NCBI GenBank assembly: GCA_023512135.1
Contig: JAIMAG010000022.1
Location: 1-33,803 of the forward strand
Length of the DNA: 33,803 nt
Direction of reading: 5' to 3'
DNA from: Terriglobia bacterium
GTDB taxonomy: Bacteria > Acidobacteriota > Terriglobia > Acidiferrales > UBA7541
Made by a program: the position numbers and the translations under genes. Under the pieces are notes generated by a model, which ran no database searches, was not told where the DNA came from, and saw only the letters and a program-made list of their open reading frames with translations. Shown here one piece after another: positions 24,205-27,066 of the stretch. Every line of letters begins with the position of its first letter. Within the stretch, counting starts at the first letter, position 1.

Positions 24205-24630
24205 TCAGAACCGCGCACCCGTTGCCCAGCCGAACCTTCTCCAACGCTCACTCGGACGAAACACCGACCCGTCTGAAAGCAGGAAACGCTCGGCCAGCCG
24301 CAGTGGGTTGATGGCGTAGTAGAAGCGCAACGGCTGCCGGACCACCGGCAGCGGGGCCCGCAGCTTGACTCCGCTGGAGGCGCGCAGCGTCCCGTTTTTT
24401 CCCTCGCAACAGCTCCGGTGCCCGCCCGCCCAACCAGCCGGGCAGCAGTCAGCTCGAGCCGACATCGAAAAAACGCAACGACGCTGCTGCTTCGGTTCCA
24501 GCGCGGCAGCGGCACGTGGTATTCGGCACTGGCGGCAACGAGTATATTGGCACCGGCAGGGACTGCCCGGAACGATTGCCCTTCGGCTCCGGCGGGTCGG
24601 CGAACAGCCACTTATTCAGGTGTTGCTCCA
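24205..24630 (-). pseudogene. Decayed C-terminal fragment of a BamA/Omp85-type outer-membrane barrel
   Basis: No single frame is open, but three minus-strand frames join into a recognisable barrel end. The pieces are: GANILVAASAEYHVPLPRWN (to about 24468); then FFDVGSS, which meets an in-frame TGA at 24449, followed past the stop by GWLGGRAPELLRG; then NGTLRASSGVKLRAPLPVV, LRFYYAINPLRLAERF and RPSERWRRFGWATGARF, ending at the stop 24205. The gain of strand-like segments and a terminal Phe is the signature of outer-membrane barrels. Frame changes coincide with runs of six A/T (24395-24400 and 24468-24473) and one more near 24565. The N-terminal POTRA part is absent upstream. Sequencing error at the homopolymers is possible but does not explain the stop or the missing 5' part. 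Confidence 0.6.
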
Positions 24631-24871
24631 CTTGCGCCAGCGCGAGTCCGGCCATACGCGCCCGCCTTCAGCGGGCAGGCCGGAGTATGCAGACACCTCC
24701 AGGTGTGCGTCAATTGTCTTGGTAAACAGGACAGGCGAGCAGCGAGTCACAAAATGGTTCTTGGCCCGTTGACGGTTAAACTGCTAGCTGGCAGTGCTGA
24801 GTTGTGGGTTGGTACCTTCGTGTTGGCCATGATGCGGAAAGGAGCGAATCACACAAAAAGACCCTATTGGC
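24631..24871. other. Non-coding stretch with two inverted repeats, next to the barrel relic
   Basis: Between the relic and the PIN-like gene I find no convincing gene. Two short inverted repeats occur: GCCCGC-CTTCA-GCGGGC near 24660-24676, and the near-perfect palindrome ACACCTCCAGGTGT (24693-24706). The second could be an operator or hairpin. GC content falls from here towards the PIN-like gene. Confidence 0.35.
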
Positions 24872-26776
24872 CTATGTGAACAGCTTGCGTAGTTTTACTT
24901 CTGTGTACCTGGCCAGCCGAGTTTCTGTGCGTCGGGCCATAGCATTAACCGTTGTCCCGTCAAAGAGTCCGACGAGGCCAATCGTCAGAAGGACTAGCTG
25001 CGAGAAGAACAAGACTAAAGTACCCCAAGAACACCGTGTGGCGAAAAAGTCGGAAACGCCGGGCAAAGTGCTGTAAGTTCCGAGTACCAGCAAGATCATC
25101 AGACTCACATAAAAGACCTTGACGACCGCAGCCGCGAGTTGCCGCGCAGTACCACTAATCTTCAAGTCTCTCGTTCGCAACTCCTCCTCCACCTTTTTCC
25201 TTTCGTCTTTTTCATGCTGTATTTTGGCTGCTTCCTCAGCCTTTATTCGCGCCTTGACCCTTTCCAAGATCTCATGAACGGTCCCCTCCGCAAAGGCATC
25301 GGGATCGCCAAAAGTGAGCTCCATCAAAATCGACTGAGAATCTAAAGTGCTTCGGAGCAAGTAGTAGTCGTCTGCTGTAATGGTACCTTGCGCCTGCAAC
25401 TTTGCGACTTCGGCCAGATATTTCTTCCACAATTCCTCGGGCGGTTCCATCGCAGCATACGCGTTAGCAATAATGTGCTTGCGAGGGAGATCGGGGGCTG
25501 TCATGGGCTTCTTCAGCCACATGATGTTCGTTAAATGATGATCAGTTATGGCTATCGGGACCGTGGACTGCAATTGGTAATCCTTGAAAAACTCAGCTGC
25601 CGCTGAGACCAAAGCGCCGTTTGGCGTTACGAATAAGGCAGCACATTCCTCAAGTCGCCAGTACTCGCGCCCCTGGCGCAGCCTGTAGATCGCAGAAAGT
25701 GAGTCAACGTCGCGTTTTCGGGCCGCCTCATTATGGTAGGTAATGTGTTTTTCTAACAGCTCGTCCAGTAAAGCCTCATCTATCTGGTGGGCTGAGTCGT
25801 AGGCGGGCTTCTCGCGCACCTTTATGCGCAGTTCACCTATTTGCTTTTCGAGTTTGGCCATAGCCAACGCAACATCGCTTGACGTCCACCCGTGTGAAAG
25901 CAGAAATCGGCCCACATCGCCGTACAGGTCGCCTGAATCAGCGCGACGGAGTGCCCTGCTACATGCGTCGAGAATGCCGTATACTTCCTCAATTGTGTGA
26001 CGGAAGCAATATAGGTTCGCGCCTGCTTCGTGCAGAAGATCCAATAGATCTTTGCACGGAGCCTGGTAGTGAGTCCCGCAAAGGCCTAGAGCATTCAGAA
26101 TGAATTTGGTGTCGAAGAATATCATCGTTCGCCGGAAGTTGCGCTTAACCTCAGAGAGGTCAGGGAACACGAGCGTGTTTGCTAAGAGATGGCCTTTCAC
26201 AATTGTTTCCAGATACTTGAACCTGCTCGGGTTTGAATGGTGGAGATGCCGAGCAAAGGCATTTACTAGGAAAACTGCGTTCCGCACGGACCGCCCAATT
26301 GGAGGAATGGGCGTGCCTTCTGCGGCAGCGGCCAGAATCTCAAGATCATGTTCCTTGAGATAGAGAAGCAAAGCGTCCTCGGCCTCCTGTTCAGTCCATT
26401 CGACGCCGTACTTTGTTCTACAGAACTCTATCAAGCTCTGGACAGTCGCATTGTGCTCTTGCAAAACACGGTTTCGTGTTGCCTGCACATTCAGCTTTTC
26501 AAGGGCCGTAGGGTTGGGAACATACGCTTTGTGTTCCACTCGGATGAACCTCTTCCGTGTCAACCGAGTCAGGATGACTTTGAGAGAGTTTACTGGCACT
26601 CTCAATCCAAACTCTCTGAGGACTCCTCCTTGGACCTCGCTCAGCGATATGACCGGCTGACCGGACGCGCGGATTACTTCAGCAACCAGAGGCGCAAAAT
26701 TCTCGACGTAGTCCTTGCCAAAGGTGTCCCAATTAACTTTGAGTATCGCGAGGCTTGTTATGGCGATCCGGCTCAT
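24872..26776 (-). CDS. Membrane-anchored PIN-like nuclease with N-terminal winged-helix-like domain
   Basis: A 634-residue protein starting at ATG 26776. Residues ~25-90 look like a winged helix (SLSEVQGGVLREFGLRV, SLKVILTRLTRKRFIRVE). Residues ~217-400 carry a PIN-like core: D222 in MIFFDTKFILNAL, E263/E264 in HTIEEVYGIL, D356/D358 in KRDVDSLSAI, and FVTPNGALVSAA where a last acidic residue is replaced by Asn386. A helical DHHLTNIMWLKKP segment, a Lys/Glu coiled coil (about 500-540) and two C-terminal spans (about 551-571 and 585-606) follow. PIN proteins are Mg-dependent RNases, often toxins. Base composition is plainly lower in GC than the flanks, suggesting transfer. I recall similar hypothetical proteins but no characterised member. 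No antitoxin-like partner gene is beside it. Confidence 0.75.
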   Translation of the reverse strand: MSRIAITSLAILKVNWDTFGKDYVENFAPLVAEVIRASGQPVISLSEVQGGVLREFGLRVPVNSLKVILTRLTRKRFIRVEHKAYVPNPTALEKLNVQATRNRVLQEHNATVQSLIEFCRTKYGVEWTEQEAEDALLLYLKEHDLEILAAAAEGTPIPPIGRSVRNAVFLVNAFARHLHHSNPSRFKYLETIVKGHLLANTLVFPDLSEVKRNFRRTMIFFDTKFILNALGLCGTHYQAPCKDLLDLLHEAGANLYCFRHTIEEVYGILDACSRALRRADSGDLYGDVGRFLLSHGWTSSDVALAMAKLEKQIGELRIKVREKPAYDSAHQIDEALLDELLEKHITYHNEAARKRDVDSLSAIYRLRQGREYWRLEECAALFVTPNGALVSAAAEFFKDYQLQSTVPIAITDHHLTNIMWLKKPMTAPDLPRKHIIANAYAAMEPPEELWKKYLAEVAKLQAQGTITADDYYLLRSTLDSQSILMELTFGDPDAFAEGTVHEILERVKARIKAEEAAKIQHEKDERKKVEEELRTRDLKISGTARQLAAAVVKVFYVSLMILLVLGTYSTLPGVSDFFATRCSWGTLVLFFSQLVLLTIGLVGLFDGTTVNAMARRTETRLARYTEVKLRKLFT

Positions 26777-26820
26777 CGAGGGACGCCCCGATTCCCATGT
26801 GCTCAGTGCTGGGTATATTA

Positions 26821-26826
26821 ATTATA
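26821..26826 (-). promoter_or_regulatory. Perfect -10 box upstream of the PIN-like gene
   Basis: On the minus strand the sequence reads TATAAT exactly, 45 nt before ATG 26776, within an AT-rich run. The best -35 (TTCGCA, 4 of 6 matches) would need a 19-nt spacer, so the -35 is weak. A strong -10 with a poor -35 is consistent with low or activated expression. Confidence 0.45.
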
Positions 26827-27066
26827 TCTGGAGTAAACCCGGAATTGCGAACGCGGCGTCCTCTCGGTACAAATGCCTCGGCATCTTGGCCAAGGTCCCG
26901 GTAGATGGCCGGGGCGACGATGTGTTGCAGAGCGAAGAGCCCGGCGTGGCAGTACGGGATCAGTCCAAGGCTTCGTTCCGGCTGCAGGTCTTCAAGTATA
27001 GCGCCCTCTTGCAACGGGTTGCACAATCCGGGCTGGCCCAGTGGCGACCAGAATGTGCCCTCAGAA
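26827..27066. other. Stretch without a recognisable gene upstream of the PIN-like gene
   Basis: A minus-strand open frame crosses this region (27116 to 26733), but it overlaps both neighbours, has no ribosome site, and its product resembles nothing I know. I leave it unassigned. The region marks the return from the lower-GC islet to the GC-rich background, at roughly 26870-26900. Confidence 0.3.

Follow-up and report, generated by a model that had tools for sequence, protein, structure and literature searches.

PIN domains are the classical toxins of toxin-antitoxin pairs, as in VapC. PrrC is a ribonuclease embedded in the EcoprrI operon, where it is held by the restriction-modification (R-M) complex until T4 infection (PMC3874165). 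DS-3 (DefensePredictor) is a single-protein PIN defence system that works without an antitoxin and needs its catalytic residues (PMC13092281). The fun(Z) locus of P2 has been singled out as defence-enriched (PMC9519451).

Here we analysed a window of 33,803 nucleotides, the whole stretch of a Terriglobia contig, in which the original prediction had picked out one gene as a membrane-anchored PIN-like protein and candidate toxin or defence effector. The family to which the gene belongs combines one architecture and a PIN fold with a D/E/D plus T-x-N site, a mobile and patchy distribution and no conserved partner, and its copies repeatedly lie within or next to loci for restriction-modification, CBASS and prophage exclusion. 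Because its relatives recur in known antiviral gene clusters, prophages and plasmids, the window protein is probably an antiviral protein new among bacteria, acting with no antitoxin as partner. The reading we prefer, with moderate confidence, is a one-gene, horizontally mobile anti-phage effector, namely a latent PIN-family ribonuclease tethered at the cytoplasmic membrane whose own regulatory region replaces an antitoxin. PIN defence effectors are already known; no description of the family, its architecture or the hsd-operon position was found in the literature searched (open-licence papers only). The gene and its parts are laid out as follows.

24872..26776, minus strand: whole gene, 634-aa winged-helix/PIN/coiled-coil/2-TM protein (open reading frame and homologues)
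About 24750..26850, no strand: low-GC tract consisting of the single gene and its AT-rich upstream region, a probable single-gene acquisition (GC profile; end of same-genus homology at 24286)
26498..26776, minus strand: winged-helix domain with MarR/MntR-like fold, residues 1-93 (AlphaFold model; VIA-align Z about 8-9 over 17-111)
26168..26488, minus strand: helical linker/regulatory region, residues 97-203, with conserved G195-x-x-L198 motif (model, alignment)
25502..26137, minus strand: PIN domain, residues 214-425, VapC the best structural match (model, VIA-align; weak Pfam PIN_3 in two homologues)
26111..26113, minus strand: D222, PIN acidic residue 1, motif FFDTK, invariant (alignment)
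25985..25987, minus strand: E264, second PIN acid (HTIEEV), the same residue throughout clade 1 (alignment)
25730..25945, minus strand: helical insertion inside the PIN domain, residues 278-349, poorly conserved (model, alignment)
25709..25711, minus strand: D356, third PIN acid (RDVDSL), the same residue throughout clade 1 and lost from clade 2 (alignment)
25619..25627, minus strand: T384-P-N386, motif VTxN, the fourth PIN position in its T-x-N variant, unchanged throughout clade 1 (alignment; PMC4229260)
25142..25288, minus strand: long charged helix/coiled coil running to the membrane, residues 497-545 (model, with helix 497-568; charge counts)
25082..25138, minus strand: TM span 1, residues 547-565 (hydropathy)
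24962..25018, minus strand: TM span 2, residues 587-605 (hydropathy)
24875..24958, minus strand: basic C-terminal tail, residues 607-634, 7 K/R and 2 D/E, predicted cytoplasmic (charge; positive-inside rule)

The open reading frame at 24872-26776 (minus strand) is intact, starts with ATG, encodes 634 aa and is present in one copy in its own genome. The GC content of the gene is 51.7%, against 64.8% in the left flank and 65.6% in the right flank, and its GC3 is 58.6%, against 79-81% in the adjoining genes for a FAD-dependent enzyme and a KefB-type antiporter. By sequence reading, the left neighbours are a glycosyltransferase and the FAD enzyme, and the right ones a DUF393-like protein and the antiporter. 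Homology between the window and a same-genus genome ends at 24286, just beyond the FAD gene, and that genome yielded no counterpart of the PIN gene. The empty site is bounded on the left only, as the same-genus contig ends soon beyond this point; the same assembly contains no close match to the right-flank antiporter, and no convincing insertion-site marks (repeats, tRNA) were seen at the window locus. The gene was probably transferred horizontally, probably as a single-gene acquisition. Hydropathy peaks are found close to the C-terminus of nearly all homologues, and the basic tail suggests that both protein ends are cytoplasmic. GC profile, model, structural alignment and hydropathy thus agree with the original prediction of one low-GC gene encoding a winged helix, a PIN-like part, a charged coiled coil and two membrane spans.

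We built an AlphaFold2 model from an alignment with 11 homologues (mean pLDDT 80.8, pTM 0.71) and discarded a single-sequence model (pLDDT 40). The best structural match found by VIA-align is Rickettsia felis VapC (Z 10.8, 133 of 133 residues, model residues 217-413, rmsd 3.1), followed by other VapCs, a Pyrobaculum PIN protein and protein-only RNase P. The PIN-like part proposed earlier is thus PIN-like in predicted fold: it is an alpha/beta domain with acidic residues clustered as in VapC, and the strand order of the model places D222, E264, D356 and T384/N386 at the expected strand ends. Residues 17-111 match the winged helices of MarR, MntR and PadR (Z about 8-9). Foldseek gave no match in the PDB at E <= 0.001, the hits being mostly spurious; against viral models a phage protein annotated 'PIN like domain' ranked first (probability 1.00, E 0.015), which is merely consistent with the assignment.

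The PIN domain is only weakly detectable by sequence, because no Pfam PIN model reaches its cut-off for the protein; sub-threshold PIN_3 matches cover the motif I to II region of two homologues (E 3e-4 and 6e-4). No Pfam, NCBIfam or PADLOC model covers the window protein. PADLOC-DB 2.0.0 gave 0 matches for it and only weak or marginal ones for ten relatives (best E 3e-4), PHROG gave none, and profile and single-sequence searches of PDB sequences returned no true relative.

Conservation within the main clade (clade 1, 15 sequences) is concentrated on the putative active site. Eleven columns are invariant (M1, P29, G195, D222, F258, E264, D356, R367, T384, N386 and W420), and five of them belong to the PIN site, where D222, E264 and D356 supply PIN acids one to three and T384-x-N386 takes the fourth position. 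Mean conservation is highest in the two PIN halves (0.34 and 0.37) and lowest in the TM spans and tail (about 0.20). The original prediction had named D222, E263/E264 and D356/D358 as candidate catalytic residues; D222, E264 and D356 are indeed invariant in clade 1, while E263 and D358 are not conserved and were ruled out. It had also read the last acidic position as Asn and doubted activity for that reason. The Asn is there: all 15 clade-1 sequences carry T-x-N (N386) in place of S/T-x-D, which makes it a family feature and not decay. The doubt is partly eased, because NTHi VapC1 and many proteobacterial VapCs also carry T-x-N; there the Asn is required, and the acid comes from a Glu three residues on (PMC4229260). 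No acid is conserved at +3 after the N386 position in the family. With Asn at the fourth position and this acid missing, catalytic activity is plausible and not assured.

The tblastn searches (E down to 2e-76) returned full-length homologues with about 20-33% identity, both plasmid-borne and from genomes in several phyla, and therefore the window gene is not a chance observation. The plasmid copies, at 22-33% identity, come from Sporosarcina, Hymenobacter, Enterococcus faecium, Arthrobacter, Pantoea and Klebsiella, with a truncated one in Listeria; further copies are in two Escherichia coli prophages, Kluyvera, Salinibius and other genomes. Members occur in Bacillota, Bacteroidota, Actinomycetota, Pseudomonadota and the phylum of the window. 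The distribution of the family is patchy: it was found in 3 of 60 relatives and in about 1% of the genomes sampled per group. The tallies, each of which includes the centre genome and some weak matches, are 4/61 in the search of relatives (own genome included), 3/396 in the phylum sample, 5/399 in the class sample, and 5/345 and 4/369 in two proteobacterial samples. No homologue was found by tblastn in 50,697 phage records, nor in scans of viral contigs. The window gene is lower in GC than the DNA around it, and so is the homologue at each of the eight loci that were checked.

In a tree of 19 rows, copies group regardless of host phylum: the window copy pairs weakly with the Hymenobacter plasmid copy, and the Klebsiella plasmid copy is close to one from an E. 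coli prophage. A second, more distant clade is well supported and keeps the architecture (clade 2; L043:8156-10033, L044:8835-10718, L046:237-2123 and L047:871-2781). Its members keep D222 (with E264 or Asp at the second position) and the membrane spans, and have lost D356 and mostly N386, so the clade 2 PIN domain may not cut RNA, judging from its residues. Copies in genomes G002 (L003/L034) and G047 (L004/L032) and on the Listeria plasmid (L012) are broken, truncated or altered, and the E. faecium plasmid copy (L008) has an altered C-terminus with IS16 behind the gene. These copies suggest rapid loss, which fits a dispensable, costly or conditionally useful gene with fast turnover. Near the broken G047 copy, L032:6257-9736 encodes a 1159-aa protein with no PADLOC match.

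The original prediction would have been refuted by homologues at fixed housekeeping loci with no enrichment near defence genes. The homologues share no fixed housekeeping locus: they lie on plasmids, occupy moron sites of prophages, and are found next to or within restriction and CBASS operons. Two copies are embedded in type I R-M operons. The Salinibius locus (L028) runs HsdM, HsdS, PIN gene, HsdR, and a locus from the class of the window (L030/G056) runs HsdM, a small open reading frame, a protein with an HsdS part, PIN gene, HsdR, with junctions of one to a few bases in the latter; at both loci the junctions overlap or abut. The two embedded copies belong to separate parts of the tree. The Salinibius and G056 genomes contain 2 and 5 HSDR_N matches, respectively, and the window genome contains none anywhere. 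If genes occur about once per kb, a random gene would directly precede an hsdR with a chance near 0.001. Seeing this twice in about 13 loci is therefore unlikely to be chance, by a rough estimate of order 1e-4 that ignores a shared preference for islands. By sequence reading, the HsdS protein of the G056 operon (L030:7113-9136) has an N-terminal nucleotidyltransferase-like stretch, and the small open reading frame before it resembles a HEPN/MNT partner, an extra toxin-antitoxin-like module in the operon. The Salinibius operon is followed downstream (L028:15197-16934) by genes for a YgjP-like metallopeptidase and for a trypsin-like protease that has a SEC-C motif, the latter matching the PADLOC candidate PDC-S45 (E 5.5e-117).

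Other copies lie next to different mobile or defence genes. The Hymenobacter plasmid copy and a type III R-M pair are divergently oriented; an ATPase and a TIR protein follow at greater distance, and the other flank carries CHAT genes. The Sporosarcina plasmid copy is followed by a recombinase and then a CBASS operon (cyclase, E1-E2, JAB, SAVED/endonuclease parts), and several plasmid copies adjoin recombinases. In E. coli FDAARGOS_1337 the gene lies in a P2-like prophage between FI and G, opposite in orientation to the late genes; in P2 this site holds fun(Z), described with the words 'cloned gene blocks growth of T5'. The copy in E. coli MEI7BO1-21 is a moron in a P2-like prophage remnant. 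In the clade 2 loci, an XRE-type repressor adjoins in a prophage-like stretch (L043), an integrase adjoins with HsdR about 11 kb away (L044), and a C5 methyltransferase adjoins (L047/L051). The window, Kluyvera, G208 and G1319 copies are solitary among ordinary genes. A single-chain design that makes an antitoxin unnecessary had been proposed from the window alone, and the compared loci agree with it: no conserved partner gene was found across them. A downstream open reading frame was considered as an antitoxin and rejected, as the small frames in three loci are mutually unrelated and the other loci have none.

Taken as an anti-phage effector, the protein might work as follows. The C-terminal two-span hairpin would hold the PIN ribonuclease at the inner face of the cytoplasmic membrane, and intramolecular contacts would keep it off, with the winged helix and the helical region as the obvious candidates in stand-alone copies. 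Copies embedded in a type I R-M operon may instead be held off by the R-M complex, as PrrC is. Infection would relieve the inhibition, and the PIN domain would then cut RNA near the membrane, perhaps tRNA or rRNA by analogy with VapC. Such cutting would stop translation and abort the infection. The solitary copies (window, Kluyvera, G208, G1319), the losses in clade 2, the Asn at the fourth position with no conserved acid three residues on, the absence of a Foldseek match at E <= 0.001 and the lack of a homologue in phage records count against this explanation. A more specific proposal is that the family is a second, independently evolved guard of the PrrC type: membrane-tethered PIN nucleases between hsdS and hsdR would be unleashed when a phage inhibits restriction, stand-alone versions would sense infection themselves, and anchoring would control when or where RNA is cut. 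We offer this only tentatively.

The most serious alternative places the toxic activity in the membrane spans, which would oligomerise via the coiled coil and kill, while the PIN domain and winged helix serve as a sensor or gate that binds RNA or a nucleotide without cutting it. Because clade 2 has lost part of the active site, D356 and N386, and kept the spans, and also because a distant relative fuses a PIN-like domain to an MCU-type channel domain, membrane damage retains some probability as the real effector. The pattern of constraint in clade 1 points the other way: mean conservation is lowest in the TM spans and tail (about 0.20) and reaches 0.34-0.37 in the PIN halves, the PIN site being the most conserved part. 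The window protein itself has no MCU domain match; we consider this explanation unlikely.

The many plasmid copies, several beside recombinases, and the classical role of PIN domains as toxin-antitoxin toxins (VapC) would suit a selfish toxin that plasmids and prophages use for addiction or stability, with defence only secondary. No conserved partner was found (the downstream frames in three loci are unrelated and other loci lack them), and the insertions inside hsd operons and at fun(Z) are left unexplained; we consider this reading improbable. A winged helix, PIN domain and membrane anchor could also form a membrane RNA-decay factor of the host, akin to RNase E/Y in RNA processing or regulation, and N386 could mean an inactive protein, that is, a catalytically dead DNA-binding regulator. 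A gene present in about 1% of sampled genomes and 3 of 60 relatives, with atypical GC, mobile loci and no conserved context, hardly fits either role, and this last reading is already disfavoured, with a very small probability.

If the protein is indeed a defence effector, it offers a simple single-gene system for how an antitoxin-less PIN ribonuclease is held off, and a route to why such a ribonuclease is tied to the membrane and whether type I restriction enzymes are guarded as by PrrC. A single chain that unites a regulatory winged helix with a PIN nuclease and a membrane hairpin lies outside the Pfam, NCBIfam and PADLOC libraries, yet the family turns up again and again in independent defence settings. 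Its copies in E. coli prophages, among them the P2-prophage homologue WP_204691543.1, make the family testable in laboratory strains.

Compared with P2 fun(Z), the E. coli homologue lies in the identical place, with FI and G on either side, and points the same way; kinship with Fun(Z) was considered and rejected, as the two have no sequence relation (BLASTP E 3.4). An MCU-like channel, that is, PF04678 with a DIME-like filter, is absent from the window protein, which has no PF04678 match, and occurs only in the distant relative. This 745-aa protein (L017, or L035:8745-10982, from genome G068 of the phylum of the window) has a PIN-like domain fused to a C-terminal MCU-type channel domain (PF04678, E 7.9e-19) in which WNVMEPW forms a DIME-like motif, and by reading its PIN-like domain has all four acidic positions (FIDTN, PPTLDE, EHDII, TVDYR). 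DS-3 resembles the window protein as a single-gene PIN protein without an antitoxin and gives a precedent for the mechanism. By description only, and in the part of that report at hand, DS-3 differs in having its PIN domain split between the N- and C-terminus, with no membrane anchor mentioned there (PMC13092281).

The window protein shares the PIN fold (best structural match, Z 10.8) and the D/E/D acids with VapC, and the T-x-N variant with the VapCs of R. felis, S. flexneri and NTHi; those VapCs carry a Glu after T-x-N that the window protein lacks. VapC comprises one domain of about 130 aa and is encoded next to VapB, whereas the window protein has 634 aa, with a winged helix, a coiled coil and a membrane hairpin, and its family has no adjacent cognate antitoxin gene. 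PrrC consists of an N-terminal ABC-type ATPase and a C-terminal anticodon-nuclease domain, in place of which the window protein, with no Pfam match to an ABC-type ATPase, has a winged helix, a PIN domain and a membrane anchor. The PrrC gene lies in an R-M operon; the window copy and those at most other loci have no such position, and the window copy has no adjoining R-M genes. The likeness to PrrC/EcoprrI (type IC R-M) is found at two independent loci, L028 and L030, where an RNase-type gene occupies the gap between hsdS and hsdR inside a type I R-M operon, and the other copies of the family stand alone, as RloC does relative to PrrC.
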